In this document: positions 4,897 to 56,303 of the stretch, in pieces
Numbering within the stretch: the first letter of the stretch is position 1
Layout: every line of letters begins with the position of its first letter
Source of the DNA: Pedosphaera sp.
GTDB taxonomy: Bacteria; Verrucomicrobiota; Verrucomicrobiia; Limisphaerales; SXQI01
Length of the DNA: 64,000 bases
Assembly: GCA_025359965.1 (NCBI GenBank)
Contig: JANYDC010000017.1
Location: 1 to 64,000 of the forward strand
Direction of reading: 5' to 3'
Notes under the pieces: model-generated
Told to the model about the DNA's origin: nothing
The model's database searches: none
Seen by the model: the letters and a program-made list of their open reading frames with translations, nothing else
Position numbers and translations under genes: made by a program

Positions 4897-5559
4897 CTAT
4901 TTCACTGCTCTGAATTTGACTGCGGGCTGCCAGTTTTTCCAAAAAGAGCCCCAGTTTTCACAACTAAAATCCATCTCAGAAACCTCCTGAACGTGGGGCG
5001 CCGCCAATCCGGGTGACCACCCGATTAGATGCGGTTTTCCGATTAGAAGCTTTTCCCAAAGCAATTTGAAGAAGGTTGCCTGCTGCTTTGGCTGGACCGT
5101 CTTGTCAATGCGGTCTCGAAAATATTTTCTGGCCGCTCCAATGGAACGAAAGGTCAAGTACGTCCGGCAATTGTCGTGAACGTACAGGATCATATCGCCC
5201 GCCTTTTTGATGAGATCGAAATCGTTTCCCGTCCGAAGTAACTCAAGAGCCTCCGGTGTGTCCAAATGCCTGGCGCCAGTGGCGATGATTTTAAGATCAA
5301 TCACACCGGGTTGATCACAGTTTGCCAACAGGCTTTCCAACTCGGTTCTATTCAATGCCAGCAGAGGGCCGGAACGAGCCTTCCATCTGGGCGGATGAAA
5401 ACCTTCGCCCCAAATTTTTGAATGGTTAACCAATGCAAAATTTGTGGGCTTTGGGAGTTCGTGAAGTAAGGGAATGAGGTCGGCGACACCATGCGGCCAG
5501 AGCTCAAGCATTGGCTTGCCCGAGTTTTCACGGACTCTGATCGCTATGGAGGTTAGCAT
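4897..5559 (-). CDS. Conserved-looking protein of unknown function
   Basis: 220 residues, no signal peptide and no membrane segment. Sequence features are a mixed alpha/beta composition, an RSIGAARKYFRDRID helix and a Trp-rich tail (ENWGSFWKNWQP). I do not recognise a family. It begins eight bases after the stop of the aminopeptidase gene, with GGGGAG just upstream of the ATG, so it is the last gene of the long minus-strand operon. The 220 bases between its end and the kinase gene at 4677-4896 hold nothing I can name. Confidence 0.75.
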   Translation of the reverse strand: MLTSIAIRVRENSGKPMLELWPHGVADLIPLLHELPKPTNFALVNHSKIWGEGFHPPRWKARSGPLLALNRTELESLLANCDQPGVIDLKIIATGARHLDTPEALELLRTGNDFDLIKKAGDMILYVHDNCRTYLTFRSIGAARKYFRDRIDKTVQPKQQATFFKLLWEKLLIGKPHLIGWSPGLAAPHVQEVSEMDFSCENWGSFWKNWQPAVKFRAVK

Positions 5560-5567
5560 CCTCTCCC

Positions 5568-6851
5568 CTACCGCATTGCCGCTTCTATTTCCTCCGGCTC
5601 CAAGGGAATATCGCCGGTGAGATCGACTGGGCCCTGATCGGTAACGAGAACGTTATTCTCCAGACGGATGCCCATGTTTTCTTCGGCTATATAAATCCCG
5701 GGTTCAACGGTCATGACCCAGCCTGCCTGCATGGGTTTGACGGTGATCCCGACGTCGTGAACATCAAGGCCCAAGGGGTGCCCCAGACCGTGCATGAAAT
5801 ATCGGCGGAAGGCCGGACTTTCTTCCTTTTGTCGCCGGACCTCGCCTTTCGTAAGCAGACCAAGGCGTAGAAGTTCTTGTTCCATCATGGCTTCTGCTTC
5901 CTTTTGCCAATCGAGGATTTGCAGGCCGGGCCTAAGACTGGCGATGGATGCGCGCAGCACACGCAGCACCGAGCGGTACACATCCTTCTGCCTCTTGGAG
6001 AACTTGCCGGACACCGGAATGGTTCGAGTTAGATCTGCATTGTAATTACTCACACAGGCCCCGACATCGAGCAGCAGCATATCCCCCTTGCGGCAGGGCT
6101 GGTTGTTTTCCACGTAGTGGAGCACGCAGGCGTTCGCCCCACTCGCAATGATCGCCGGGTAGGCAAAACGCCCCCGGTTCCGGATAAATTCATGCGCATA
6201 CTCGGCCTCCACCTCGTGTTCCTGCACGCCCGGCTTCACAAACTTGAGCACCCGCGCAAAGGAGTCGCCTGTTACCTTCACGGAGTGCCGCATCAGATTC
6301 AGCTCGACCTCGCTTTTCACGGAGCGGAGCTGGTGCATTAGGCGGGCGAGACGTCCGTAGTGATGGAGGGGATAACGCCGGAGGGTATCGGCAACGAAGC
6401 GGGCCTCGCGTGTTTCCACCTCAATCACAGCGCGTTTGTGCTCGTTGGTGTTCAGAAAAACCTGGTCGCACTCGCAGATCAGCCGGTGGAACATGCGCGG
6501 AAAATCCTCCAGCCACAGGATGTTTTCGATACCGGTTTTGGCTCGGGCCTCAGCCTTGGAAAGCTTGTGTCCTTCCCATGTGGCGAGCAGCGGAATGGGT
6601 TCACGGATGAAAAGAATCTCGCGCAGTTTCGGGTCATGCGACTCGGGGTAGAGCAACAGGATGGTTTGCTCCTGTGTGATACCGGTGAGGTAAAACAAAT
6701 CGCTATTAGGCACGGCTACCAGGGTGCCATCTGCATTGGTCGGCGGGACGTCATTGGCATTCACCACCACAAGGGATTGGGGAGGGAGCAGCTCGCGCAG
6801 GCGCGAACGATTAAGCCTGAAGAGCGTGGCAGATAGTTCTGGCGTTTTCAT
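5568..6851 (-). CDS. pepP: Xaa-Pro aminopeptidase (M24B metallopeptidase)
   Basis: Removes N-terminal residues preceding proline, in the cytoplasm, using two metal ions in a pita-bread fold. The 427-residue length fits PepP (about 440). The N-terminal AMP_N domain is recognisable (VPNSDLFYLTGITQEQTILLL). The five metal ligands are visible: both Asp in DVGACVSNYNADLTRT, His in HGLGHPLGLDVHD, Glu in VEPGIYI and Glu in GIRLENNVLV. The ATG at 6851 is the first start in frame. It follows a methyltransferase gene by about 50 bases and precedes an unknown gene by eight, so it is part of the downstream end of the secretion operon, although its job is probably housekeeping peptide turnover. Confidence 0.95.
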   Translation of the reverse strand: MKTPELSATLFRLNRSRLRELLPPQSLVVVNANDVPPTNADGTLVAVPNSDLFYLTGITQEQTILLLYPESHDPKLREILFIREPIPLLATWEGHKLSKAEARAKTGIENILWLEDFPRMFHRLICECDQVFLNTNEHKRAVIEVETREARFVADTLRRYPLHHYGRLARLMHQLRSVKSEVELNLMRHSVKVTGDSFARVLKFVKPGVQEHEVEAEYAHEFIRNRGRFAYPAIIASGANACVLHYVENNQPCRKGDMLLLDVGACVSNYNADLTRTIPVSGKFSKRQKDVYRSVLRVLRASIASLRPGLQILDWQKEAEAMMEQELLRLGLLTKGEVRRQKEESPAFRRYFMHGLGHPLGLDVHDVGITVKPMQAGWVMTVEPGIYIAEENMGIRLENNVLVTDQGPVDLTGDIPLEPEEIEAAMR

Positions 6852-6902
6852 GAGCGGCCCTGTCTTAGCATATTACGAGCGCGCATACAAAACATTGCTG
6901 CT

Positions 6903-7703
6903 CTATGGAAATTTAGTGTTTCTGGCCACGACGAAACCGCAGAACATACCGTAGCGAAGAGGGGTAAGATTAAGAAGAAAATCCAAGGGGGCCGCAACGT
7001 AACGGTCGGTGCACAAGGCCTTCTCCACTTGGCATCCGTTGCGTTCGAGAAAAAACTTAATCTCCAAAGCGTTGGTGGCAACAATGGCGTCGTCGTCCGG
7101 GGTGAACGGCACCTTGACGATGGGCGTCATTTTATCAAAGCGCACCGTTTCGGGCTGCTGCCGCATTTGACGGCGCTTTTCCATCAAGCGCTGAAAATTA
7201 CGCCATTTATTGCCGAGCCCGCGCATGCGAGGGTGATAATCGCGGAAACCGGCCACGCGCAGAAAGTTGGGGCTTGAAATGACTATTTTGCCGCCTGGCC
7301 GGACCACCCGCACCAACTCGGCAATGAAGGCCTCGGGCTGGTCCACATGTTCCAGAACGTTCAATGCTCCAGCACTGGCAAAGTAACCGTCCTCAAAGGG
7401 AAGGCGCGTCCCATCATAGACGAGGCACTTGTCACTGAATTGGCGTGCCTTGGCGATGCTCGGCTCGCTGACGTCCACCCCGTGAGCCTCGGCGCCAGCC
7501 TGCTTAAGGCGGTGAACCACCTGCCCCACACCGCAACCGACATCCAAGGCGCTACCGCCTTGCTGATCCGGCTTCAGAGTGTCGGCATATTTGGCGTAGA
7601 AATTCTCATCCCATCCGGCGAGAAATTCGGCGTAGTCCTCGTTGTGCGTGTAGTATTTCTGCTGTTCGCTCATGGCCTGCAAGGGCTGGACATCTTTCAC
7701 CAT
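6903..7703 (-). CDS. Class I SAM-dependent methyltransferase
   Basis: 266 residues. Motif I is clear (ALDVGCGVGQVVHRL, about residue 52), the acidic end of beta-2 follows (AHGVDVSEPSIAKARQF), and the motif IV/post-I region reads FASAGALNVLEHVDQPEAF. This is the Methyltransf_11/UbiE-like fold; the methyl acceptor cannot be told from sequence. The start at 7703 (MVKDVQPL) is the first ATG; MSEQQKYY ten codons later is an alternative. It lies 11 bases downstream of the secretin gene, so it is probably co-transcribed with it. A role in modifying a pilus or secretion component is only suggested by position. Confidence 0.85.
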   Translation of the reverse strand: MVKDVQPLQAMSEQQKYYTHNEDYAEFLAGWDENFYAKYADTLKPDQQGGSALDVGCGVGQVVHRLKQAGAEAHGVDVSEPSIAKARQFSDKCLVYDGTRLPFEDGYFASAGALNVLEHVDQPEAFIAELVRVVRPGGKIVISSPNFLRVAGFRDYHPRMRGLGNKWRNFQRLMEKRRQMRQQPETVRFDKMTPIVKVPFTPDDDAIVATNALEIKFFLERNGCQVEKALCTDRYVAAPLDFLLNLTPLRYGMFCGFVVARNTKFP

Positions 7704-7714
7704 GATTGGAAGTC

Positions 7715-10120
7715 TTATTCGTCGATACGTTTAAGCTTGGCCTTCTTATCCAGCTTCTTGCTGCGCTTGGCATTCGATTCTTCAAAGTCTTGAATGGCCT
7801 CGCGCGTGCCGGGCTGCTGCATCCGCTCAGTAGTGGCCATGATGGCTGCGGCCTCAGGCGTCGCAAGGATCGTGGCCTTGATCAGAATCATGAGTTCGGT
7901 GCGATTGTTGGCGGTGCTGCTGGACCGGAAGAGAAAGCCGATGCCCGGGATATCCTTTAACCACGGAACGCCGGATTTGCTGGTCGATTTAGTCTCACTG
8001 ATGAATCCGCCCAGCATGATCAAATCCTTGTCTCGGACAGTGAGCGTGGCCTCAGCCTGACGGCTGTTCACGATGGGGACCGGATTGCCATCAATAGTGA
8101 CGTCCGCACCGCGCTGATCAAACTGTTGTTGGATTTCCATGACCACCAGACCCTCGGGAGTAATGAAGGGTGTTACAGAAAGATTCAGACCAATGACACG
8201 CTCTTGCACTGAGGATCGACTGGTCAGACCACTCCCGGCATAGCTGCCGTAGTCGGTCGTTCCGGTCACATAAGGCACGGTTTCGCCTACGAAGAAAAAG
8301 CCCGGAATGGCATGTGACGTTTGGATGCGCGGACGGGAGACGATCTTGATATTGCTGTCCGTGGCAATGGCGTTGATGGCCACATCGAAATCGCCGGCAA
8401 TGCGGGTGTAATAGTTCATGCCGCCGGGCATGCCGGCAGGGAAATTGGTGATGCTCCGAAGAAAGCCGAACGAATCTGAACTATTGTTCTGGCCACCCGC
8501 CCCTACAATTTCATTGCCGATACGCCGGGGTTGTTGGACCGCGCTCACTCCCACTTTTACGCCATCATCCAACTTCACCTCAAGAATGACCGCCTCGATC
8601 AACACTTGGGCCAGCAGCACGTCCACCTTGGCCACGATGTTGGTGATCATGACCATGTCGCGCTTGTTGGCAAACACCAGGAGCTTGTTGGATCGTTCAT
8701 CAGGCACAATATTGGCACCTTCCAACAACTGATTTTCAGCCGCGCCGCCGGCAGCCTTGTTGACAATTTGATTCAACCGATTCTGAAAGCTATTCTGGTT
8801 GCCGGCCGCAGAGGTGCCGCCGCCAACAGCCCGGGCCGGAGGGGTAACTTGTTCCGGATAGTATCCGCCGCCGCCATATTGGCTGCGGTTGCCATAACCT
8901 CCGCCGGAACCGCCGGCGCCGCCGTTGATATAGTTTCCGCCGTACCTGCCGCCACTGCCAGCGCCATTCAATCCCCCGTAAGCCCCACCGCCGGAGCGGC
9001 TGTTTGACCCACCCAAACCTCGGCTGCTCTGGGCTCCACTAAAAGCCCCGCCACCACCTCCTCCTGCACCACCTCCGCCGCCAGAGATTAACGCACTCAT
9101 TGTGGCATAGATATCAGTCACTTTTCCGTAGCGGATAGGTATTACTTCAAGCTGAAAATCGGTCTCGGGGGTCTTATCGATGTGTTCGATCAGCTCCAAC
9201 ATTCGTTTAAGGTTGGAGGCCGTGTCGCGCAGGACGAGAGACGAATTGCTATCAATGGCCGTCACGGCAGTGGGCAGCTTGGAAAAACCGGCCAGTACAG
9301 GGGCAATTTCACTGGGCTTGATGGATTTAAGCTTTACCACCTTGGTAAAGAACTGCTCCGAGTCGGGCAGTTCCTTGGAGGTTAGTTTGCTGATTTCAGC
9401 ACCCTCCTTGTCAGCCTGGGCGGCAGGCACAGCTTTGATGAATTTTTCCCCCATCGGTATCATGGTGATGCCGTTCAGAGAGAGGACGCTTTCCATGGCT
9501 TCAACGACCTCGCGGCGATTTAAGTCCGTTTCCGCTTTAAGGGTCATTCCGGTCGGTCCCGGCAGATTGTAGGCGCGCAGAACAGTGCGTCCTGAGTACT
9601 TGGAATAAATATCAAGAAAAGTGGGTAGATCCATGCCTTGAAGCTGAATGGTCCCTGCCTCAAATGTTTCATTGCCGTCCATGGTAGGCGCCAGTGAACT
9701 CGCAACCACGTTGGTCCCCGCAAGGCCCGCAGGAGCATTGGTGCGGGGCGCGTTACGCTGCTGCGCGGCCAGACCTATCGCGTTCGTAGCGGCGGCATTG
9801 GTCCCCCCATTCGGCAGCGGAAGGACAGCTGCATTTGAGGGTACCGCAGCTGAAGGAAGGCCATTCGTGAGCGAACGGCGAACGCGAGGACCGCGCGGCG
9901 GTAGCGAGGGAAACGCGGGTACGCCACCTTGCGGGGCGGCGTTGGTGGCAGTGACGGTCGGCTCGGGCAGCACTGGCGCAGCGGGACCGGGCTCGGCAGA
10001 CGGGGGTACGACAGCGGCAGGAACGGGGTTGGCCGCGTCGGGCACGGCAGGAACCACATCTTCAGCGCGGCTGCAGAATGCCAGCAGGCCGGTAAGGGTT
10101 AAAATGGCGAACAGACGCAT
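7715..10120 (-). CDS. gspD: Type II secretion / type IV pilus secretin
   Basis: Outer-membrane channel subunit of a type II secretion or pilus system. 801 residues starting with a signal peptide (MRLFAILTLTGLLAFCSRAE). A long Pro/Ala-rich stretch runs to about residue 150, then N-domains (VVEAMESVLSLNGITMIPMG; KLKSIKPSEIAPVLAGF), a glycine-rich loop (about 345-425, many GGG repeats), another N-domain (LLVFANKRDMVMITNIVAKVD) and the secretin core with SRPRIQTSHAIPGFFFVGETVPYVTG and the C-terminal LIMLGGFISETKS. The glycine-rich insertion inside an N-domain is unusual in length. Six bases separate it from the PilO-like gene upstream, consistent with one operon. Confidence 0.93.
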   Translation of the reverse strand: MRLFAILTLTGLLAFCSRAEDVVPAVPDAANPVPAAVVPPSAEPGPAAPVLPEPTVTATNAAPQGGVPAFPSLPPRGPRVRRSLTNGLPSAAVPSNAAVLPLPNGGTNAAATNAIGLAAQQRNAPRTNAPAGLAGTNVVASSLAPTMDGNETFEAGTIQLQGMDLPTFLDIYSKYSGRTVLRAYNLPGPTGMTLKAETDLNRREVVEAMESVLSLNGITMIPMGEKFIKAVPAAQADKEGAEISKLTSKELPDSEQFFTKVVKLKSIKPSEIAPVLAGFSKLPTAVTAIDSNSSLVLRDTASNLKRMLELIEHIDKTPETDFQLEVIPIRYGKVTDIYATMSALISGGGGGAGGGGGGAFSGAQSSRGLGGSNSRSGGGAYGGLNGAGSGGRYGGNYINGGAGGSGGGYGNRSQYGGGGYYPEQVTPPARAVGGGTSAAGNQNSFQNRLNQIVNKAAGGAAENQLLEGANIVPDERSNKLLVFANKRDMVMITNIVAKVDVLLAQVLIEAVILEVKLDDGVKVGVSAVQQPRRIGNEIVGAGGQNNSSDSFGFLRSITNFPAGMPGGMNYYTRIAGDFDVAINAIATDSNIKIVSRPRIQTSHAIPGFFFVGETVPYVTGTTDYGSYAGSGLTSRSSVQERVIGLNLSVTPFITPEGLVVMEIQQQFDQRGADVTIDGNPVPIVNSRQAEATLTVRDKDLIMLGGFISETKSTSKSGVPWLKDIPGIGFLFRSSSTANNRTELMILIKATILATPEAAAIMATTERMQQPGTREAIQDFEESNAKRSKKLDKKAKLKRIDE

Positions 10121-10125
10121 AAATA

Positions 10126-10848
10126 TTACAGTTTGGGAGCCGGCTTGGCAGCTCCGGGCTTTGGGGTCATTGCCGGTAAGGAATTGGTTTTGGCTCCCGC
10201 CACCCCCTGGGCGGCAGGCTTGGCTGGCGCATTAGTGGCGGGGGTTGACGGACGTTTCTCCACCGCTACGGATGCCATGCGCGCGGGTGGCGCGTTGACG
10301 GGGGCTTTCTTCTGGTAACTGGCCACGAACACAAGGGTTCCGGCCAATTTTGTGCCGGACGAATCCGGTTTAACATCCATTTCACGCACGCGGATCATGG
10401 AGTTGCCGGTGGCCAGGCTGGCCAAAAAATCAACCAGCGCCTTGCCGTCCGCCAAATATTCCACACGCAGATGTTGATCCTCAAAAAACTGGTTGGTCTT
10501 GCCGCCACTAGCGCGGGGTTTGGGGTCGTAAAGGGTAATCTGCATGCCGCTGGCAATGGCCTGGCTCTGGACCAGGCGCTGCAATTGAAGCTCCTCGAAA
10601 AGCACATCGGAGCCGTTGGCTTGCATGTCCTTTAGTTTGATGCTCAACGCATTGGTGCGGCCGATCTCAGTCTCATAAGTTTGCAGGGTTCGATCGGCCT
10701 TTTCAATGGCGGTCTGCACTTCGGCAAGATCGTTTCGATGCGGGAAAACAAAGAGAAAATTGAGCACTATGAACACCACCACGGCGACCACGACCACCAG
10801 CCGTTTTTCGTTGGGTCGCAGATTTAATTTATCGAGCCACCGCATCAT
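10126..10848 (-). CDS. PilO/GspM-like inner-membrane assembly protein
   Basis: 240 residues with one N-terminal membrane segment (LVVVVAVVVFIVLNFLFVFP, about 17-36), a following coiled coil (NDLAEVQTAIEKADRTLQTYETEIG) and a ferredoxin-like periplasmic domain. This is the plan of PilO and GspM, which form the inner-membrane platform with PilN/GspL. The C-terminus is an Ala/Pro-rich tail. Two adjacent ATG codons form the start and overlap the stop of the upstream PilM/N gene, so translation is coupled. Sequence identity in this family is low, so the call leans on topology and position. Confidence 0.8.
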   Translation of the reverse strand: MMRWLDKLNLRPNEKRLVVVVAVVVFIVLNFLFVFPHRNDLAEVQTAIEKADRTLQTYETEIGRTNALSIKLKDMQANGSDVLFEELQLQRLVQSQAIASGMQITLYDPKPRASGGKTNQFFEDQHLRVEYLADGKALVDFLASLATGNSMIRVREMDVKPDSSGTKLAGTLVFVASYQKKAPVNAPPARMASVAVEKRPSTPATNAPAKPAAQGVAGAKTNSLPAMTPKPGAAKPAPKL

Positions 10849-45938: not shown

Positions 45939-46622
45939 TCACCTCCTCATCAACCGTTTAACTTCGTAGGCTGGGTAAATGAAACGAAAATCCGCACGGT
46001 TCAATTCGATGGGCGAATAATTGGGGTTTTCACTGGTGAGACGGATGCGGGTGCCCTCGGGGCCGGTGCAATGGTACCACTTGAACAGCACTCCCCCGTC
46101 AGCCAAACGCGCCAACACAGCATCGCCATTACGCGGTTCGCTATTGGGCAGGAAGATCACGCGATCACCGGCGAAAAAACGGCCTTCCATGCTGTCTCCC
46201 TCCAAAATCAGGGCAAAGGCATTGGGGTCGCGGCAATCACTTGAGACCTGCTCGTCCAATTGGGCATCAAGATCTTCAAAATCCTTCCCCGTCCCGGCGG
46301 TGGCCCAGCTGATGACTGGCACGGGTTGAAATAACTTAGTGACACGGGGCTCTTCTTTGACGCCTCCGCGCAGATCAATGGAGGGTCTTCTCGGTGATTG
46401 TTGCGACGCCTTGGCTACAAAGGTTTCCATTAAATGCCGCAGTTTAGCGGAGGGAATTTTGTAACCTTTTTCAACAAGCACGTAGTAAGTGCGGTGAATA
46501 TCCAACAAATCAGCAACTTCTTGCTGTGTGTAGCGCAACGACTTACGTGCATTCCGTAAAATTGTTGCATCAAAGCCAACATTTCCAGTTGACTCCACAT
46601 GGGGTGTAGCATTATCGTCCAT
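45939..46622 (-). CDS. S24-family (LexA/CI-like) repressor
   Basis: 227 residues. N-terminal XRE-type helix-turn-helix (RNARKSLRYTQQEVADLLDIHRTYYVLVEKGYKIPSAK, about 23-60, shown as one motif region), linker, then a peptidase S24 domain with Ser144 in GDSMEGRF and Lys181 in VLFKWYH, the self-cleavage dyad. An Ala109-Gly110 bond in SWATAGTG fits the LexA/CI cleavage site. It is divergent from the head-gene row, as expected of a prophage-type repressor inactivated by RecA during DNA damage. The 45-base gap must hold its operators. Confidence 0.92.
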   Translation of the reverse strand: MDDNATPHVESTGNVGFDATILRNARKSLRYTQQEVADLLDIHRTYYVLVEKGYKIPSAKLRHLMETFVAKASQQSPRRPSIDLRGGVKEEPRVTKLFQPVPVISWATAGTGKDFEDLDAQLDEQVSSDCRDPNAFALILEGDSMEGRFFAGDRVIFLPNSEPRNGDAVLARLADGGVLFKWYHCTGPEGTRIRLTSENPNYSPIELNRADFRFIYPAYEVKRLMRR

Positions 46623-46667
46623 ACAACATGAATTAAGTAATCAATGAAACCAAACAGCGTAACATAT

Positions 46668-47486
46668 ATGAAGAATCCGAGCAGTATACAATCAAATTCT
46701 GGCACTCCCGCCTTGGCCGTAGTGGTTCTAGTGGCAGTGGGTTGCACTCATCTGTCCTTGCAACGGTCCGCCCGGAAGCAGGCGTTGGAGGAGGAATCAA
46801 GGGCCTTAACCACGGCGGTCGTTGACACCTTGCAGGCCCAGCCTTTCCCGGTGCGCGATGGATATACCGCCACCGCGCTCCGTTTCGCCCGTCAGGACCA
46901 GCACATCGTGGGGTTGCCCTTGCAGCCTTTCGATGTGCCGGCCCTGCTGGCGGCGGTGACCAATATCGGCTCATCCAACAGTGCCTCCCGCGCAACTATT
47001 GCGGCGGAGGCGTCACTCGCCACGCGTTTTGCCAAACAAGACGCCTTGCTTGGTGAGGTGGCCCGGATCGACGGCCACCTCATGGCACAGGGCGTGAAGC
47101 GCGAGGAGGAACAAAATGCGCGCCGCAAATGGTGGTTCAAAGTGCTGGCGGTTGTGGCGCTGCCGCTCGGCGGCTTGGTGGCGGTCGTGGTGTTTTTCCC
47201 GGTGGCGCTTCCCATTCTGGGACGGCTGCTGGGGGCGGTGGTCAGCCGGCTGCCTCAATTGGCGGGCTGGCTGGGCTTGGTAAGCGTGCGCGCCTTCGAC
47301 AGTTTGGTCCACGGCATCGATCGATGGAAGCAGGCAAACTCCGGCGGTGCGCCGACTGTCGTTGGTGGAAACACCGACGCCAGCCGACGCCCCGACGAGA
47401 GCACAGTGGAGAGTCTCCACACCGCGCTGAGTCGCGAGATGGATTCGGCGGACAAGGCATTGGTCCGCGCCCGCCGGGAAGGCTGA
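46668..47486 (+). CDS. Membrane protein of the phage cassette, unknown
   Basis: 272 residues from the ATG at 46668 (an ATG at 46644 would add eight). N-terminal hydrophobic stretch TPALAVVVLVAVGC, possibly a lipoprotein signal, then a helical region and a second strong membrane segment (WFKVLAVVALPLGGLVAVVVFFPVALP). It is the first gene of the plus-strand head module, between repressor and terminase, a place where early or lysis genes could stand. I do not recognise a family. Confidence 0.62.
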   Translation: MKNPSSIQSNSGTPALAVVVLVAVGCTHLSLQRSARKQALEEESRALTTAVVDTLQAQPFPVRDGYTATALRFARQDQHIVGLPLQPFDVPALLAAVTNIGSSNSASRATIAAEASLATRFAKQDALLGEVARIDGHLMAQGVKREEEQNARRKWWFKVLAVVALPLGGLVAVVVFFPVALPILGRLLGAVVSRLPQLAGWLGLVSVRAFDSLVHGIDRWKQANSGGAPTVVGGNTDASRRPDESTVESLHTALSREMDSADKALVRARREG

Positions 47487-47556
47487 TCTTCCGGCGCGTA
47501 TAAGGCTGCCCCTACTCCTCCTCGCGCCCCCGTGCGCCCATTTCACCCACTTGGTT

Positions 47557-48921
47557 ATGAATTTCTCGTGTATCACCGGCAATCTCTTTGCCTACCAGCG
47601 CCGCTGGCTGGATGACGGCAGCCGACTCAAGATCGGCCTCTGGGCGCGGCAGACCGGCAAGGATTTCACCTGCGCGGCGGAGGCCGTCATGGATATGGCC
47701 ACCCGGCCCAACTCGACTTGGGTGATCTTTGCCGCGAGCGAGCGCCAGGCTCTTGAAAGTCTCGACAAAGCCAAGGAATGGGCTCGCGCCTTGAAAATGA
47801 GCGCCAAGGATACCAAAGTCGAGCGCGACACGCCCTCCGCCATCCTGAAGGCAGCCTCCATTGAGTGGCCCAACGGCTCCCGCATGCTGGCCGTCCCCTC
47901 CAGACCCTCCACCGTTCGCGGATTCTCCGCCAACATGATCCTCACCGAGTTCGCCTTCCACGATGATCCTGCCGCAGTCTGGCGCGCCCTCTACCCCACC
48001 ATCTCCAACCCTCTGAAGGGCGGCGTCAAAAAAATCCGCATCATCAGCACTCCCAATGGACGCGGTAATTTCTTTCACGAGCTGTGGGAATCACCGCGAT
48101 TCGCCAAGCATCGCGTCACGATCCATCAAGCCGTGGCCGAGGGACTTCCCATCGACATTGAGGAGCTGCGCACCGGCCTGAACGATCCCGAGGCTTGGGC
48201 TCAGGAATACGAGTGCGCTTTCATTGACAACGCCAGCACCCTTCTGACCTACGAAGTCATCACCGCCTGCGAGCATGCCAGTGCCACCACCATCAATACT
48301 GAACCTCCCGCTCCGTGCGAACGCGTTCTGGTCGGCATTGATTTCGGGCGCAGCAAAGACCGCACCGTCTGTTGGACACTGGTAGAGCGCGATTCGATCT
48401 GGTGGACCCACGAAGTCCTGGTGCTGGAGAACACTTCGACACCCGATCAACTCGCCATGCTCCGCCCCCGTGTCGCCCGTGCCCATCGCGTTTGTCTGGA
48501 TTCCACGGGGGCGGGCCTTGGCCTTGGTGAATTTCTGGCGCGCGAATTCGGCGAATGGAATGGCGAACCGTTTGCGCCGGGCCGCATCGCTCTCTGCCAT
48601 TTCACGGCCGCGCTAAAGCAGGCCATCTTCGGACGCCTGCGCCCGCTGCTCGAAACCCGCGCTGTGCGCATTCCAATCGACATCGGCATTCGCGAGGATC
48701 TCCATGCTCTCCGCCGAATTCCGCGCCCCGGTGGCGGCATTTCCTACGAGGCTCCGCACGGGCCGGATGGGCACGCCGACCGCACCACCGCTCTCGCTCT
48801 GGCCCTGCACGCCTCGGTGTTGGATTCGCCTGTTGGGCCGCCTCCTCCGCCACGCGCCATCGTGACCATTCCCTCCCGCTTCCGCATGCATCGCGCGCTT
48901 CACCTGCGCGGTTCTTTGTAA
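47557..48921 (+). CDS. Phage terminase large subunit (Mu gp28-like)
   Basis: 454 residues. The packaging motor: ATPase with an atypical Walker A ARQTGKDF (about 31-38), Walker B-like MILTEFAF, coupling ISTPNGRGNFFHELW, and an RNase H-like nuclease beginning VLVGIDFGRSKDRTV with Asp acids, then LDSTGAGLGLGEFLA and HADRTTALALALH. TTG at 47551 is rejected in favour of ATG 47557. The next gene is a Mu-type portal, which supports a Mu gp28 relation. No small terminase is obvious. Confidence 0.88.
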   Translation: MNFSCITGNLFAYQRRWLDDGSRLKIGLWARQTGKDFTCAAEAVMDMATRPNSTWVIFAASERQALESLDKAKEWARALKMSAKDTKVERDTPSAILKAASIEWPNGSRMLAVPSRPSTVRGFSANMILTEFAFHDDPAAVWRALYPTISNPLKGGVKKIRIISTPNGRGNFFHELWESPRFAKHRVTIHQAVAEGLPIDIEELRTGLNDPEAWAQEYECAFIDNASTLLTYEVITACEHASATTINTEPPAPCERVLVGIDFGRSKDRTVCWTLVERDSIWWTHEVLVLENTSTPDQLAMLRPRVARAHRVCLDSTGAGLGLGEFLAREFGEWNGEPFAPGRIALCHFTAALKQAIFGRLRPLLETRAVRIPIDIGIREDLHALRRIPRPGGGISYEAPHGPDGHADRTTALALALHASVLDSPVGPPPPPRAIVTIPSRFRMHRALHLRGSL

Positions 48922-48968
48922 CGCCTCGTCCTTAATTAAACCGTCCCCTTTTAACATTTAGAACCTCC

Positions 48969-51044
48969 ATGAACACCACCTCACACCTAAGCCCCGAACG
49001 CATCAAACGCGCCACACGCTGGCGTTTTCAATCCGTCGCACGCCTCACGCCCGAACGTCTCGCCCAGCAGTTGGACGCGTTCGACAATGGCTGGCTGCGC
49101 GACGCCTCCCTGACCTGGCAAACCATTGAACGACGTGACGACTTGATTCAAGCCGTTGCGCCCAAACGTCGCAAAGCCGTCGCGCGTCATGGCTGGGCCA
49201 TTCTGCCCACGCAGGGGTTGACTGCGGCACAGGCTGCCGAGGCACGGCTCCACACCGAAGCCCTGCAATACTTCTACACGCATCTGACCGCCACCCATGG
49301 TCTCGACGGAGCCGAGCGCGGCGGCTTCAAATTGCTGGTGCGGCAAATGATGCACTCCGTGGGCCATCGTTTCTCCGTGCATGAAGTGTTGTGGCGGCCT
49401 GAATCGGCCACCTCGCGCGGCGCGCAAAACCGCCCACGCTTTCTCACCGCTGATTTTCGTTTTGTGCCGCTCGATTTTTTCGAGAACACCACCGGCACTC
49501 TGCGGTTTCTGGCCGATGAGCGGGCCATGGAAGGCACGCCCTTGGAACCCGGCGCGTGGCTGATCACCACCGGCGAGGGATTGATGCGCGCCACTTCCAT
49601 CGCCTGGATGCTCAAGCAACTGACGCTGAACGATTGGTCCCTTTACTCCGAGCGCCACGGCACGCCCGGTGTGCGCGGCGTCACCACCGCCGCGCGCAAC
49701 TCGGCCGATTGGGATGCCATGGTGGACGCAGTGGCTGAGTTGCTGAACGGCAACGCCATTGTGACCTCCACCACCGAGGATATCAAAGTGATCGATCTGG
49801 CGGCGGGCGGGCAGATGCCTTTTCCTGCACTGGTTGAACGGATGGACCGTGTGATCGCCGCGCTTTGGCGTGGAGCCGATCTTTCCACGCTCAGTCGTGA
49901 GCACGGTTACGGGGCCAGCTTGCAGGAGCGCGAGTCCTGCCTGTTGGAGGAGGATGACACGGAAACCATCTCCGAAACACTCCACCAGCAAATCGACCGT
50001 GAAGTGATTCGTCTGGTTTTTGGCGAAGGCGTGGAACCGCTGGCACGCGTGGAAATCCTAGGCGCCGCCAAGGAATGCACGGACTTTGATTTGAAGATCG
50101 ACTCGTTCTTTTTGGATCATGGTGTGGCCATTGATCCCGAGGCACTGCTGGGACGCTACGGCCGAACCAAACCGCCGACCGTCGCCAACACTCTCGCCGT
50201 GGCAAACTCGCTTGAGGCGGTTCCACCCGACTGGATTCAGCTCTCGCCCTTCGGCGATTTCCGCCACCGTCAGGGGTTGCAGCGGGTGGATCGTGCAGCG
50301 GCCGAGGCCATGAGCACGCAGTTCAAATCCTTCTGGTCGCGGCTGGGACGGGCCTTCGGCGGCCTGCCCTTTTATGTGGGGCATCCCGATGTCCCCGAGC
50401 TGGCCGGTCCGCAGCCTGATCCACGCGCGTATGGATGGATCATGAATCTCGAAGCCCGCAGCGATGGCCTCTACGCGCAAGTCCGCTGGACGGAGGAGGG
50501 CCGGCGCATGATCCAGGACCGGCAGTTCAAATTCTACTCGCCCTACTGGCAGGTCGAGACCATCGGACAGGAGGCGGGCCTCCCGTTGTTCCGGCCGATG
50601 CGCCTGATCTCCGCCGGTTTGACCAATCAACCCAATCTGCCGGTGCTCCCGCTGGCCAACCAATCCACAGCGGTGGGTTTGAGTCCGCAGCCCCAAAGTG
50701 GAATTGCCGATGCGCTCTTTGAGACGGCACTGCTCCACGGCGAGGCGGCTCCGGCTGATGAGAAGATCTTTCGCGAGGCTTGCGATTCAGGGGCATTGGC
50801 CAATCGCATCTCCGCGCCTGGTCGCACTCCCCGGCGCTTCCGCACCGTCGAACATTCCCAAACACGTCGGCTTAACGAATCGCGCCGCGCACGCGCTCTT
50901 GGCGGAACCCGCTCGCTGGCTCGCGAAAGACTCGATGCGCTTCTGGATGCCAAGACCATCGCCGGTATTCCCTTCGAACAGGCCTGGGCGCTGGTGAAAA
51001 CAGAAGCCCCCGAACTCTTCGCGCAACTCGAACAACCCCGCTGA
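48969..51044 (+). CDS. Fusion: DUF935 portal protein + Mu I-like scaffold protease
   Basis: 691 residues, longer than Mu gp29 (about 510). Residues 1-400 follow the DUF935 portal pattern (TWQTIERRDDLIQAVAPKRRKAVARHGW; KLLVRQMMHSVGHRFSVHEVLW; GLMRATSIAWMLKQLTLNDWSLYSERHGTPGVRG). From about 425 the sequence becomes protease-like, as Mu gpI: WIQLSPFGDFRHR, PFYVGHPDVPELAGP, AYGWIMNLEARSDGLYAQVRWTEEGRRMI, FKFYSPYW, LISAGLTNQPNLPV. The tail is basic. In Mu the two are separate genes. The fused order fits co-assembly of portal and procapsid protease. Confidence 0.85.
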   Translation: MNTTSHLSPERIKRATRWRFQSVARLTPERLAQQLDAFDNGWLRDASLTWQTIERRDDLIQAVAPKRRKAVARHGWAILPTQGLTAAQAAEARLHTEALQYFYTHLTATHGLDGAERGGFKLLVRQMMHSVGHRFSVHEVLWRPESATSRGAQNRPRFLTADFRFVPLDFFENTTGTLRFLADERAMEGTPLEPGAWLITTGEGLMRATSIAWMLKQLTLNDWSLYSERHGTPGVRGVTTAARNSADWDAMVDAVAELLNGNAIVTSTTEDIKVIDLAAGGQMPFPALVERMDRVIAALWRGADLSTLSREHGYGASLQERESCLLEEDDTETISETLHQQIDREVIRLVFGEGVEPLARVEILGAAKECTDFDLKIDSFFLDHGVAIDPEALLGRYGRTKPPTVANTLAVANSLEAVPPDWIQLSPFGDFRHRQGLQRVDRAAAEAMSTQFKSFWSRLGRAFGGLPFYVGHPDVPELAGPQPDPRAYGWIMNLEARSDGLYAQVRWTEEGRRMIQDRQFKFYSPYWQVETIGQEAGLPLFRPMRLISAGLTNQPNLPVLPLANQSTAVGLSPQPQSGIADALFETALLHGEAAPADEKIFREACDSGALANRISAPGRTPRRFRTVEHSQTRRLNESRRARALGGTRSLARERLDALLDAKTIAGIPFEQAWALVKTEAPELFAQLEQPR

Positions 51045-51112
51045 ATTTTTGGTGCGGTACGCCGAGTCCAGGGCGCACAGCACTTCACTCAAACCATGGA
51101 CATTTCCCACCT

Positions 51113-51610
51113 ATGAAAACCAAACCCATCCGCAGGGCTTTCAACGCCCTGCTCCACGAACTCAAACGCCGCCATTTCGCGGCACAACGCCGCAACCGGG
51201 CCTTCCGTCTGGCCAACATTGCGGAAGGCACCCACGAGGGCAATATCACCAAGACAACGGACGTCGTTATCGGCGAACGCTTCCTGCTGGCCAAAATCGG
51301 CAGCGCGGCGGATCGCGTGAACATCTGCACCGCCGTCGATAATCCCATCGGCGTCATCACCGACGAAGCCGCAGCCGTATTCGACCTTGTCAACGTGGCT
51401 TTGCTCGGTTCCATCGGGACCACCGTGCGCATGGTGGCCTCGGCCGCGATCACACAGGGCTCGCTGCTTGAACCCGCCGCGGCGGGCCGCGTGGCAACGC
51501 TCGGCGGTTCCGTCGGAACTCACTATGTGGTCGGTCGCGCTCTGGATGCGGCCGCCGCCGCAGGCGATGTGATCGAAGTCGATCCGCTCTACTTCCTGCG
51601 CGTCATCTAA
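51113..51610 (+). CDS. Putative capsid decoration/cement protein (DUF2190-like)
   Basis: 165 residues. A basic N-terminus is followed by a beta-rich domain: IAEGTHEGNITKTTDVVIGERFLLAKIGSAADRV, VDNPIGVITDEAA, SAAITQGSLLEPAAAGRVATL, VIEVDPLYFLRV. This is the pattern of small head-stabilising proteins between protease and major capsid genes. Position and pattern both support the call; no sequence search was made. Confidence 0.68.
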   Translation: MKTKPIRRAFNALLHELKRRHFAAQRRNRAFRLANIAEGTHEGNITKTTDVVIGERFLLAKIGSAADRVNICTAVDNPIGVITDEAAAVFDLVNVALLGSIGTTVRMVASAAITQGSLLEPAAAGRVATLGGSVGTHYVVGRALDAAAAAGDVIEVDPLYFLRVI

Positions 51611-51634
51611 AACTCAACTCGAAACAAGAATCCC

Positions 51635-52651
51635 ATGAACACAGAAAACATCGATATGCAAAACAACAACTCCTCACCCATCGCGGCTTTCCGGTCTGAC
51701 GAACGCCTCGCGCTGGACAATGGTCGCCCCGACCCGGGCCAGCTGGTTCTGGCCAACGAAGCGCGTTTCAACGCCTCGTTCTATTCCGAGCCTCTCACCG
51801 CCTACGCCGTGGGCTGGCGTGATCAAAACGAAATCGAGAAAACCCTCGATTTTCTTGCCCCACCGGTCCAGGCCGGTCGCCGCTATGAGTTCAAGAAATC
51901 GGATAACACCGAGGCTTTCTATTCAGAAACCGATGACTTGCGGGCCATCGGCGCGGATTTCAAACGCGTCGAGTACAAGGGCATAACCCAGCTCGACAAA
52001 ACCCTGAACAAAGGGCTGACCCTCCGCGTCGATCTCGATCAGATCGACAGCATGGTTAATTGGCGCGAGGTTTTCACCGCCCGCCTGCTCCAACGTCTCC
52101 TCCGCAACGAACTGCGCCGCGCGATCACTCTCATCGCCGGCGTAGCCACGAACACCGCCAAAACATGGGACACCACTGTCGGTCGCGATCCTGACCAGGA
52201 TGTGCTGACCGATCTCATCGCCGCTGTGGATGATTCGGGCGTGCGACCCAACCGCCTGTTGTACGGTGATGTGGCGTGGAACAAGCGCCTCATCGCCCAT
52301 CGCGCCCAGGCCTCGGCGGGCGGTTATGCCTCGGCCGGATTGACCACGGGCGAACTGGCCGGGTTCATGGGAGTCGACGGCGTGCGGGTCTCGCGCGAGC
52401 GTTTTCAATCCACCGCTGTACTCAAAGGCAAAGTCGTGCCGGACGTTGTTCTGGAATTCTTTGCCGAGGACGGCGTGGGCCCGGATGATCCCAGCCACGC
52501 CAAACGCTTCTGGACCGCGGTCGAGGGCGGCGGCAAATACCGCGTCTACGAGCAGCAAATGAGTGCCAAACTCATCGACCTCACCGTCGAGCATTACAGC
52601 AACGTGTCGGTGACCTCCACCCTCGGCCTGCGCAAACTCACCATCAGCTAA
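51635..52651 (+). CDS. Phage major capsid protein
   Basis: 338 residues in the right place (after portal/protease and decoration genes). Sequence has coat-like features: DPGQLVLANEARFNASFYSEPLTAYAVGW, a P-domain-like region with GRRYEFKKSDNTEAFY, and the long helix EVFTARLLQRLLRNELRRAITLIAGV. HK97-type fold is inferred. The start could also be at the second Met (MQNNNSS). Confidence 0.75.
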   Translation: MNTENIDMQNNNSSPIAAFRSDERLALDNGRPDPGQLVLANEARFNASFYSEPLTAYAVGWRDQNEIEKTLDFLAPPVQAGRRYEFKKSDNTEAFYSETDDLRAIGADFKRVEYKGITQLDKTLNKGLTLRVDLDQIDSMVNWREVFTARLLQRLLRNELRRAITLIAGVATNTAKTWDTTVGRDPDQDVLTDLIAAVDDSGVRPNRLLYGDVAWNKRLIAHRAQASAGGYASAGLTTGELAGFMGVDGVRVSRERFQSTAVLKGKVVPDVVLEFFAEDGVGPDDPSHAKRFWTAVEGGGKYRVYEQQMSAKLIDLTVEHYSNVSVTSTLGLRKLTIS

Positions 52652-52723
52652 ACCCACCCGCCACGACGACCGGGGTTGCCTCAATCAACTCCGGCCGTCG
52701 TTGCGGTTTTCAATTTTTACCTT

Positions 52724-53545
52724 ATGAAACTGATTTCCCAACTCAACCGAATCCCCACCAAACTTTACAACCCCGAGACCCTGCTCTACCGCGACCGCGT
52801 CATTGCCAACAGCGGCACCATTTCCGATGCCTCGCTTGATGCCGTCGAGAAATTTGTGCAGGACTGCAAGAACGCCATGGTCTGGGACAAGCTTCTCGAA
52901 GTCGGCGTGTTTGCCGGCAACAACCTCAACGCCGCCCTGACCAAACTGGTGGTCGGCCCCGGCGCGCCCACCGCACTCACCAACGTCAATTTCGTCGGCG
53001 GCGATTACGCCGAGACGGGATCATCCGGCGGACTCAACGGCGATGGCGCCACCAAGTATCTGAACACTGGGTTCTCCGGCACCAATCTCCCCGACACCGC
53101 GCACCTCAGCGCGTACCTGCGCGATGACGTGGTGGCGGCGGGCAATCGCTCGCTTCTAGGCACGCTCACCGGCACGGACCAGTTTTGGATGGGCGGACTG
53201 AACGCGGCGGCCACAGTGGACTTCCGCTATGGCCAGCTCAACGGCACTACCCTGCTGACCGGTTTGGTCAAGGGGTTCTGGTGTGGAGTCCGCGTAAGCT
53301 CCAGCATTCTGCGTCTCTTCCGCAACGGGACCTACGCCGATCTCAACAGCAGCGCCACCACCCTCGTGAAACCGGCAGGGAACGTTTTTATCCACGCTTA
53401 CAATTTATCCGGTTCGCCAGGCGGTTATACCCCGGGCCGCATCTCCTTCTACAGCATTGGAAACGCCATGAGCGATCCCGATGTCCTGGCCTTCCACCTC
53501 GCCGTCCGCACCCTTCAATACAACCTCAACCGTGGCATCAACTAA
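52724..53545 (+). CDS. LamG-like structural protein of the cassette
   Basis: 273 residues. The N-terminal 80 residues are helical (ASLDAVEKFVQDCKNAMVWDKLLEVGVFAG); residues about 90-273 look like a concanavalin/LamG beta-sandwich (FVGGDYAETGSSGGLNGDGATKYLNTGF; HLSAYLRDDVVAAGNRSLLGT; GRISFYSIG). Such domains occur on phage surface or receptor-binding proteins. Start: ATG 52724, since upstream codons are not conserved-looking. It stands 73 bases after the capsid gene. Confidence 0.65.
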   Translation: MKLISQLNRIPTKLYNPETLLYRDRVIANSGTISDASLDAVEKFVQDCKNAMVWDKLLEVGVFAGNNLNAALTKLVVGPGAPTALTNVNFVGGDYAETGSSGGLNGDGATKYLNTGFSGTNLPDTAHLSAYLRDDVVAAGNRSLLGTLTGTDQFWMGGLNAAATVDFRYGQLNGTTLLTGLVKGFWCGVRVSSSILRLFRNGTYADLNSSATTLVKPAGNVFIHAYNLSGSPGGYTPGRISFYSIGNAMSDPDVLAFHLAVRTLQYNLNRGIN

Positions 53546-53546
53546 C

Positions 53547-53852
53547 ATGAAAATCCTTATTCTCAAACCCTCCGCGCTGACCACCCTCGACGCCAAAAAC
53601 ACTGCCGAAACCAAGAACCAACTCCTCCACCCCGGCACGCTCAAAACCGGCGAATCCTTCCTAAACGCCGACCTCCTCAGCGACTGCAACCCCGGCCAAA
53701 CCTGGGAACATTACCACGACCTCATCACGGCCGCCGAAGTGCGGGACATCACCGACAAAGACCTCCGCAAAGGCCCGCAATTCACCAAACAAGGAATCCA
53801 AACCGAGGTGGAATTTGATGCGGCTGTTGCGCAGGCGAAAGAAAGCGCCTGA
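53547..53852 (+). CDS. Small protein ending the head module, unknown
   Basis: 101 residues, start two bases after the LamG-like stop, so co-translated. Sequence MKILILKPSALTTLD and HPGTLKTGESFLNADLLSD; hydrophilic, no membrane segment. A head completion or accessory role is guessed from position only. Confidence 0.6.
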   Translation: MKILILKPSALTTLDAKNTAETKNQLLHPGTLKTGESFLNADLLSDCNPGQTWEHYHDLITAAEVRDITDKDLRKGPQFTKQGIQTEVEFDAAVAQAKESA

Positions 53853-53856
53853 TGAT

Positions 53857-54151
53857 TCGCGAAGCGTCTTGGAACGGAGCCCCTTCCGGGCCATCCCGGA
53901 GGGATGCCAGCTGGTAGCCGGGGGTCGCGTGAGGAACGAACGCTACCCCCGGTAGGCCGGTTAAATAATAACGATCCTGAAGGGATCGCAGACATCCTAC
54001 ATCCGGGATGGCACCCCTAACCTGCGACCCTTTCAGGGTCGAATTTTTTGCGTACCTGTTCCGGTGGTGTCGTCGCTCCGCTCCTTACTCACCGGCTAAT
54101 GGCTTCCAAGCCTCCAGCTTGGAAAACTTCAAACTTCAAACTTCAAACTTG
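53857..54151. repeat. Repeat cluster downstream of the head module
   Basis: Contains TCGCGAAGCGTCTTGGA (also at 39778-39794), a hairpin CCGGGGGT (53919-53926) with ACCCCCGG (53945-53952), a GATCC-TGAA-GGGATC palindrome, and four tandem copies of AAACTTC/G at 54124-54151. No gene is present between 53853 and 54226. It mirrors the REP array on the far side of the cassette, but with a different repeat type. Confidence 0.65.
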
Positions 54152-54226: not shown

Positions 54227-54622
54227 ATGAACACCGAAATCATCGCCTCCACCACTCGCGCCACCCTGGCGGGCACCATCTCCTTCCCCGACGTCGTCGC
54301 CGCCCTTATCGCCACCGGCGTGGAATATTATCACGTCGATTATGCCGCCCTGCGCATTACTTTTTACAACGGCGATGGTGCCGCCATCGTCATGCCCATC
54401 CTCTACGAAGGCCTCCCACCCATAGCTCCCGATTTCCAACCTGATAATTTAAAAGCCGCCATTCTGGACAGCCAATGTCACGGACAAAAATTCCGCGACT
54501 TCACCCACCGAGCCATGTCCGCCGGCGTGCAAAGTTACACCGCCTTCCTACGAGGCCAACGCGTCACCTATTTTGCCGGACCGGCGACCAATACACCGAA
54601 TGGTTTCCAAGCGCTGCACTAA
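54227..54622 (+). CDS. DUF1398 (YbcV-like) protein
   Basis: 131 residues: RATLAGTISFPDVVAALIATGVEYYHVDYAALRITFYNGDG is the family's N-terminal pattern, followed by DNLKAAILDSQ and FTHRAMSAGVQSYTAFLRGQRVTYFA. The E. coli relative YbcV sits in a prophage; its function is not known. ATG at 54227 chosen. Confidence 0.8.
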   Translation: MNTEIIASTTRATLAGTISFPDVVAALIATGVEYYHVDYAALRITFYNGDGAAIVMPILYEGLPPIAPDFQPDNLKAAILDSQCHGQKFRDFTHRAMSAGVQSYTAFLRGQRVTYFAGPATNTPNGFQALH

Positions 54623-54720
54623 TGGGGATCCTCACGCACTAGACAGGCTAACCCCGCCGAAAGGACGTTTAAACCCGTGTTTGTTTGACGTACAGCTATT
54701 GATACGGTTTGCTGATTTAA

Positions 54721-55725
54721 ATGCACAAGAATGAAACCTGTTTCGTCATCATGCCGTTCAGCGAAACAAACCATTCCATTGGTACCACCGACGTTGTTTT
54801 GATGAAGCGTGATTGGGATCACATTTATGAGAAATGGATCAAACGTGCTGTGGAGTCCTTCTCTGAGAAACGAATTGAATGCAAGCGCTCACCAGCTCAA
54901 CCGGGAAGTTTTGTCCGGGGAATTGTGAATGATCTGGCTGAGTCGTCGCTAGTAATAGCAGATCTCACAGGAGGACGACCTAATGTCTACTACGAACTTG
55001 GTGTCCGCCACGCCCTGCGAACGGGCACTATCATAATAACCCAACACCTGTCTGCATTACCTTCTGACCTGCATGGCTATTACGCCTTCGAGTATCGATT
55101 CACTGAAAGGAGCACGGATTACGAAGATGCTTATTTCGAATTTGAGAAAAACTTGCATGACAAAATCCTTTCCATTTTCTCCGCGAGAGTCACATCTGAT
55201 AGCCCTGTCAGCGACTTCCTAGGCCTGCGCCACCAGCTATTGCTTAAGTCAATGGAAGAAGAGAAAAATGAGTTGGTCTGGACTTTAAATGTCTGCGGGA
55301 AGGTCCTCGAAGAGAATTTCCGGACTGCTGAATGGATATGGAGGTCAGCATCATCCAAAAAGCCGGGTAAGATAGAGAACATGTTGGTCTTCGATACGGC
55401 GGCGCTTGACATTGCATATGCTCGACTGCTGAACAGAGCCTGGCGGTGTTTACCTGAACCCCTTCTCAACAACCTAATGGAAGTTCTCAATCAGGACCGA
55501 CGAATGTTCCAGTCACTCAATCAGTATATGACTGTTCTGATGATAAACTTGTCAGGGCATTTTAGTGATTCATTCTTTGCGTTTCTAGAACATGCAGTCG
55601 AACGCCATGCGACCTTCAAGAAAAAGTGGCCTAAATTGATTGAAAGCGCAAATTCAATATGTCCTCAAATCATTGCGGAGCCAGATGTAAGCGTTCAAAA
55701 GCGGAAACGTGCCCGAAGAGGCTGA
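54721..55725 (+). CDS. TIR / nucleoside-deoxyribosyltransferase-like protein
   Basis: 334 residues in two parts. Residues 1-about 135 form the TIR-like/NDT-like Rossmann domain: ETCFVIMPFSE, DWDHIYEKWIKRAVESF, RGIVNDLAESSLVIADLTGGRPNVYYELGVRHAL, TIIITQ. The Glu in YYELG is where NDT and TIR enzymes have their catalytic acid, and related domains cleave NAD or nucleotides in defence systems. Residues 170-334 are helical and unrecognised. It stands alone with TTGACG upstream and has clearly lower GC than the phage genes before it, which suggests separate acquisition. Regulatory or sensing partners are not visible next to it. Confidence 0.72.
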   Translation: MHKNETCFVIMPFSETNHSIGTTDVVLMKRDWDHIYEKWIKRAVESFSEKRIECKRSPAQPGSFVRGIVNDLAESSLVIADLTGGRPNVYYELGVRHALRTGTIIITQHLSALPSDLHGYYAFEYRFTERSTDYEDAYFEFEKNLHDKILSIFSARVTSDSPVSDFLGLRHQLLLKSMEEEKNELVWTLNVCGKVLEENFRTAEWIWRSASSKKPGKIENMLVFDTAALDIAYARLLNRAWRCLPEPLLNNLMEVLNQDRRMFQSLNQYMTVLMINLSGHFSDSFFAFLEHAVERHATFKKKWPKLIESANSICPQIIAEPDVSVQKRKRARRG

Positions 55726-55907
55726 TACGTGCAGAACGTCCGAATTGAATTCTATGCCATTGAAACAATAGAGACCAACGCAGATTGAACTATCAACAGA
55801 ATGCGAGACATTTGAAAGTTCCGATAATTGATCGGGTCACAAATTTCCGATAAATCAAATCCCTGTAATTTGGTCCTTCATCGTCCGCACTACGTTGGAT
55901 TCATTTT

Positions 55908-56303
55908 ATGGACGAGCCCAATGATTTGAAGAAGATCCGGGAGGTCATTGCCACTTGGATGAAGGCGACTTAGTCGGGGGATGTGGAGATGGTGCTGGGG
56001 TTGATGGCAGAGGATGTGGTTTTTTTGGTGGCGGGGCAACGACCCATGCGAGGGCGGGAGGCTTTTGCGGCGGGGATGAGGGCGGCGTTGCAGCGGGTGC
56101 GGATTGAGGGGGTCTCGGAGATTCAGGACATTCAGGTGGATGGGGATCATGGGTATTGTTGGACGTATCTTGCCCTGACGATCACGCCGGTGCAGGGAGG
56201 ACCGCACAAGCGGCGGGCGGGCAATACGCTTTCGGTGTTTCGGAAAGAGGTGGATGGACGTTGGCGGTTGATCCGCGATGCCAATTTGCTGACGGAGGTT
56301 TAG
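55908..56303 (+). pseudogene. SnoaL-like (NTF2-fold) gene split by an in-frame TAG
   Basis: From ATG 55908 the frame reads DLKKIREVIATWMKAT, then TAG at 55971-55973, then SGDVEMVLGLMAEDVVFLVAGQRPMRGREAF and the NTF2-fold C-terminus (RRAGNTLSVFRKEVDGRWRLIRDANLL). The part before the TAG is exactly the conserved first helix of this family, so the stop interrupts one gene without a frameshift. An internal start at 55983 could give a shortened protein lacking the first helix. Confidence 0.75.

Follow-up and report, generated by a model that had tools for sequence, protein, structure and literature searches.

The window analysed here is a 64,000-nucleotide stretch of Pedosphaera sp. DNA (contig JANYDC010000017.1). 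Positions 54721–55725 of its + strand carry an intact open reading frame with an ATG start, 334 codons and no internal stops. It encodes a complete protein of 334 amino acids with a TIR/NDT-like N-terminal domain and a helical C-terminal domain, and is termed here the TIR gene. A genome search shows it to be present in a single copy in its own genome. The GC content of the gene is 46.3% (GC3 50%) versus 57%–63% (GC3 71%–77%) in the nearby phage head genes, thus the base composition is indeed unlike that of the phage genes, as stated in the preliminary description. The SnoaL-like, FMN-binding and ApbE genes on the right of the TIR gene display 58%–61% GC. By GC content, the 1-kb slice with the TIR gene ranks in the bottom ~0.6% of the window, and the maximal-scoring low-GC segment (positions 54660–55936) consists of the TIR gene and little besides. 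When the ends of an inserted element were sought, no inverted or direct repeats were found that convincingly flank this segment. An empty site could not be read in the same genus, as the three genomes concerned have neither the TIR gene nor the flanking FMN-binding gene. A promoter-like element had also been attributed to the gene. This was not confirmed: there is no sigma-70-like site upstream on the + strand, and the total number of sites found is the same as in shuffled sequences.

On the left side, positions 45939–53849 display a Mu-like head module with terminase, fused portal and protease, scaffold and capsid genes and, next to them on the other strand, a gene for an S24/HTH repressor (positions 45939–46622). 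Among the genes scanned, none was recognised as a tail or integrase gene, and the module is a remnant or a satellite. Two stretches of a repeat that is dispersed in genomes of the order follow the head-gene block (positions 53887–53952 and 54061–54121). The repeat has many copies in three other genomes (G029, G006 and G012) and is often paired, with variable material between the copies. The DUF1398 gene (positions 54230–54622) comes after the repeat stretches. It is patchily conserved in the order, with 66% identity in the genomes G014 and G019.

The TIR gene and the DUF1398 gene had been proposed to form a joint cargo or defence segment. The proposal was rejected in view of two properties of the DUF1398 gene: its GC content is an ordinary 57.7%, and five genomes that have relatives of it (G014, G019, G043, G050 and G135) gave no TIR match. 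In the three DUF1398 loci that were inspected the neighbours are ordinary chromosomal, non-phage genes. Because the repeats separate the head genes from the DUF1398 gene, and because DUF1398 relatives occur without a TIR match and in non-phage loci, the TIR gene, the DUF1398 gene and the head genes appear to be unconnected with one another. Apart from the adjacency already described, nothing was found that ties the TIR gene to the head genes.

A related explanation is that the TIR gene is part of the head-gene remnant and serves the phage as an accessory gene, e.g. in superinfection exclusion. The gene adjoins the terminase-portal-scaffold-capsid genes, and homologous domains are present in a staphylococcal phage, as an extra gene inside the early block with an orientation opposite to its neighbours, and in a streptococcal phage, as an extra gene in the lysogeny region. 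However, the GC content (46% versus 57%–63% in the head genes), the dispersed repeats and the DUF1398 gene (itself present in non-phage loci) that lie between, and the position of the only relative of the same architecture, which is not beside recognised phage genes, make this explanation very unlikely.

The TIR gene is a single gene between the DUF1398 gene and a SnoaL-like gene, and no recognised defence gene was found beside it among the neighbouring genes scanned. The SnoaL/DUF4440-like gene (positions 55908–56303) has an apparent ATG at 55908, and its frame is interrupted by a TAG at 55971. The open reading frame listed for it, from 55983, is without the first part of the domain. This SnoaL/DUF4440-like copy may be broken.

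The N-terminal domain (aa positions 1–156; nt positions 54721–55188, + strand) is confidently predicted to have a TIR/NDT (DrHyd) fold. The AlphaFold2 model, made with a 21-row alignment, gives mean pLDDT values per 10-residue block of 86–96 for aa positions 31–150, 72–82 for positions 1–30 and 78 for positions 151–160, with a full-chain pTM of only 0.55. The model matches both NDT and TIR structures. VIA-align gave Z = 14.0 with DNPH1 (rmsd 2.3 over 122 residues), 13.2 with MilB, about 12–13 with NDTs, 12.3 with the SfSTING TIR domain (118 residues aligned, rmsd 2.5) and 12.3 with the SPARTA TIR domain. Foldseek gave E-values of 3.6e-4 with CtNDT and 6.2e-4 with SfSTING. A profile of the whole domain ranked DNPH1/Rcl first (E-value = 5.5e-7), and the protein matches the PADLOC “Effector TIR” model PDLC00733 (E-value = 1.4e-10). 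The score with Pfam CAP12-PCTIR_TIR (PF10137) is 15 bits, below the gathering cut-off of 24.7, and the protein is therefore filed as TIR-type only and not as a member of PF10137. The TIR-DrHyd-SLOG class to which the domain belongs has been described (PMC9503650).

Of 292 other genomes examined in the order, 28 have relatives of the N-terminal domain; in a phylum sample, searched with a stricter cut-off, 12 of 386 other genomes do. The PADLOC model PDLC00733 matches 20 of 21 family members, nine of the 21 match the Pfam nucleoside 2-deoxyribosyltransferase family (PF05014), and none of the 21 deviates at F8, N88, E92 or D116. Thus the VIMPF...YYELG motif pattern (VIMPF at aa positions 9–13; IADLTGGRPNVYYELG at positions 79–94), as judged by these sequence comparisons, is no chance match. 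The TIR/NDT-like assignment made earlier, the idea of a catalytic glutamate in YYELG (E92) and that of a single-chain “effector plus tail” all find support in the predicted structure, the profile alignments and the context of the family, with hydrolysis itself being predicted.

The residues of the predicted active site bear on the likely substrate. The segment R86-P-N88-V-Y-Y-E92 (positions 54976–54996, + strand) aligns by profile with R78-x-N80-xxx-E84 of SfSTING, where these residues provide phosphate/ribose contacts and the catalytic glutamate (PMC9402430). A profile of aa positions 77–157 has SfSTING (CAP12, PDB 7un8) as its top PDB match (E-value = 4.1e-4), and this alignment places R86, N88, E92 and D116 on SfSTING R78, N80, E84 and D110. 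The SfSTING numbering used is the chain index minus 8, an inferred offset with which the F-E-F sequence around E84 agrees with the F83 and F85 reported (PMC9402430). D116, in the sequence LPSDL (positions 55066–55068, + strand), is the counterpart of D110, which on filament formation enters the pocket of the partner subunit and completes its active site (PMC9402430). The invariance of D116 in the family suggests activation by assembly as in SfSTING. W32 and Y36 (positions 54814–54828, + strand) have the same spacing as SfSTING W33 and F37 and are their probable counterparts; the SfSTING residues function in nicotinamide stacking (PMC9402430).

The invariant F8 (positions 54742–54744, + strand) appears to be at the position of the tyrosine of NDTs and DNPH1 (CtNDT Y7, human DNPH1 Y24) and of SfSTING F6 (PMC9402430). 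This placement derives from the points at which the structural alignments begin (model position 2 to DNPH1 18, 3 to CtNDT 2 and 4 to SfSTING 2) and not from a residue-by-residue structural alignment. In NDTs and DNPH1 the tyrosine forms a hydrogen bond with the catalytic glutamate, and TIR NADases usually have phenylalanine or alanine in its place (PMC11204291). I68 (positions 54922–54924, + strand) replaces the NDT/DNPH1 aspartate (human DNPH1 D80) in the profile alignment, where the D80 column was identified by the A and N of the D80A and D80N entries. All 21 family rows have I, M or V at position 68.

The phenylalanine in place of the NDT tyrosine, the isoleucine in place of the NDT/DNPH1 aspartate, and R86, N88, E92 and D116 as in TIR-STING favour NAD+ over deoxynucleotides, and the active site as read from the sequence appears to fit the TIR NADases rather than the deoxyribosyltransferases. 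An NAD- or nucleotide-depleting activity had been suggested for the protein; the NAD+ option is the one favoured by these residues. Hydrolysis of a ribonucleotide in the manner of MilB is possible. This relates to the explanation that the protein is a nucleotide-depleting N-glycosidase of the MilB/DNPH1/NDT type, which would cut the glycosidic bonds of ribo- or deoxynucleotides instead of NAD+ and so starve phage replication. The two best structural matches, DNPH1 (Z = 14.0) and MilB (Z = 13.2), both act on nucleotides, and the PF05014 matches in nine family members and the first rank of DNPH1/Rcl in the whole-domain profile (E-value = 5.5e-7) point the same way. Against deoxy substrates is the change of Tyr to Phe and of Asp to Ile/Met/Val in 21 of 21 members; in addition, R86, N88 and D116 match the NAD pocket of TIR-STING. 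We consider the N-glycosidase explanation unlikely.

Several known systems resemble the TIR gene product in part. One of them is TIR-STING/CAP12, the CBASS effector represented by SfSTING (7un8). It shares the TIR fold, the N-terminal position of the TIR domain and the four residues aligned above, and SfSTING F6 probably corresponds to F8, but the protein described here has no STING domain and its helical C-terminus is unrelated. With respect to CBASS and Pycsar, no cyclic-nucleotide synthase or ligand-sensing domain was detected by Pfam in the coding sequence or in the neighbouring genes scanned. With respect to Thoeris, PADLOC gave no ThsB match for the protein, and no ThsA-like neighbour was found among the genes scanned. 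Swarozyc, a DUF4062 TIR-like NADase with an auxiliary sensor domain that has been related to TIR and NDT (PMC13174449), is likewise a single chain with an N-terminal TIR-like NADase (here predicted) and a C-terminal auxiliary domain. Its C-terminus, however, has an HTH/winged fold (PMC13174449), whereas a helical bundle is predicted here, and DUF4062 gives no Pfam match at E ≤ 1 in this protein or at E ≤ 0.01 in the 21 members. NDTs and DNPH1/Rcl share the fold, the catalytic glutamate and the YELG motif and differ in having Tyr for F8 and Asp for I68. The CMP N-glycosidases MilB and BcmB also have the fold with the catalytic glutamate in place, but they are biosynthetic nucleotide hydrolases, and the aligned chains are without such a C-terminal helical domain. 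TIR/DrHyd-TPR proteins, annotated as “TRAFs-binding” or “tetratricopeptide repeat”, belong to the same N-terminal family (27%–33% identity), but have C-terminal TPR-type repeats and in two cases inspected are plasmid-borne next to a TIR gene, one also with a type I restriction (HsdR) gene. A literature search combining the “TRAFs-binding” annotation with TIR and phage gave no result.

The C-termini of the relatives vary; some are TPR-like, one is a phosphoribosyltransferase (L059), and there are others. Regulation can thus not be transferred from the relatives to this protein. Several members share the junction that follows the N-terminal domain, DSPVSDFL in this protein (aa positions 160–167; nt positions 55198–55221, + strand) and DSPxxxF in the alignment.

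The C-terminal domain (aa positions 158–334; nt positions 55192–55722, + strand) is predicted to be a four-helix bundle. Modelling from the single sequence gave a helical bundle with pLDDT 77, and just two of five models are good. Searches of viral contigs, of phages and plasmids and of the phylum sample revealed no convincing relatives of the domain, and a comparison of the whole protein with PDB sequences left the C-terminal part without a recognised relative. Model and searches thus agree with the earlier description of this part as helical and unrecognised. A fold identity was sought for the model and dropped, as only generic helical bundles were found (best Foldseek E-value = 0.07). The top VIA rows are mostly designed bundles and chemoreceptor domains with Z up to 12.4; helical bundles can attain such values simply through the way their helices are arranged, and no fold is claimed. 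The match at L026, a weak one in an open reading frame without a TIR domain, and similar low-scoring matches look like chance and were rejected.

The sole C-terminal match in the order is in another genome (G690, contig C36), in a gene of the same architecture that has 49% identity over aa positions 57–245. That copy (L097, positions 9473–10250) is a broken orthologue, with residues 22–56 missing and a change of frame, and beyond about residue 245 its C-terminal sequence is divergent. Its GC content is 40% in a 57% context. As named from sequence reading without a family search, its locus lies between a gene of 288 aa and a FabD-like gene, and an argininosuccinate-synthase-like gene precedes the 288-aa gene. 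The presence of two low-GC copies (46% here and 40% in G690, with ~57% in the surroundings) at unrelated loci, one of them decayed, is consistent with horizontal gain and loss. Relatives of the N-terminal domain are scattered across the order and the phylum.

The genomic neighbours of some relatives are genes of the defence type. These are a type I R-M specificity subunit and two TIR genes (L058), TIR and patatin (L060), TIR-FGE (L061), ThsB (L085), CHAT and NB-ARC-like genes (L022) and type I R-M genes (L073). Many relatives are found among ordinary or housekeeping genes. Since PADLOC models were also matched by control genes taken from further away in these stretches, the defence-type neighbours are taken as supporting context and no significance is claimed for them. 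That some relatives adjoin ThsB or other TIR genes, and that TIR enzymes of this class are capable of cyclisation (PMC9503650), is in accordance with a signal-generating TIR enzyme, which would produce a messenger of the cyclic ADP-ribose type, in the manner of Thoeris ThsB, to switch on an effector encoded at another place in the genome. This is quite unlikely, given that no ThsA-like or other effector was recognised among the neighbouring genes scanned and that the gene stands singly between the DUF1398 and SnoaL-like genes.

The explanation that we favour, with moderate confidence, is that the TIR gene is a horizontally acquired single-gene defence effector, a TIR-type NADase that is activated by assembly, with a tail that senses or controls, and that aborts phage replication. 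The protein probably serves as a suicide alarm against phages that needs no second protein. The TIR-type domain would hydrolyse NAD+ by way of the catalytic E92. Subunits would assemble such that each pocket is completed by D116 of the adjacent subunit, and the C-terminal helical bundle may sense an infection cue, or drive or control assembly. Activation would deplete NAD+ and phage replication would be aborted. We infer the substrate, the oligomerisation switch, the sensing function of the tail and the anti-phage role from the comparisons given above. We also put forward, tentatively and at somewhat less than an even chance, that the helical bundle represents a novel domain for phage sensing or for assembly, with direct control over the TIR NADase in the same chain; the gene would then be a single-gene anti-phage system of a kind not yet described. 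Should the tail respond to a phage component, it would constitute a new sensor. Highly improbable is an inactive or non-defence TIR-like protein that acts as a nucleotide sensor or regulator; some TIR/DrHyd/SLOG proteins are non-catalytic sensors (PMC9503650), but the catalytic residue set is conserved here.

With its putative regulatory tail, the protein is probably a variation on a known theme, and it adds an architecture to the single-chain TIR-type effectors. The family is large and poorly annotated, its members often being named just hypothetical, tetratricopeptide or TRAFs-binding proteins. The residue-level predictions (F8, R86, N88, E92 and D116) would distinguish NAD+ from nucleotide hydrolysis across the family.

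Two other arrangements were observed among the relatives. One relative (L069, positions 3484–4470) has, by sequence reading without a family search, an extra TIR-like N-terminal domain fused to the TIR/NDT-like domain. In addition, a TPR-tailed relative recurs as a pair with a small TIR protein (L085, positions 7438–9055; L102, positions 5366–7260; L103, positions 5974–7624), the latter being ThsB-like in L085. The pair is found on both chromosomes and plasmids and is possibly a two-gene defence module.
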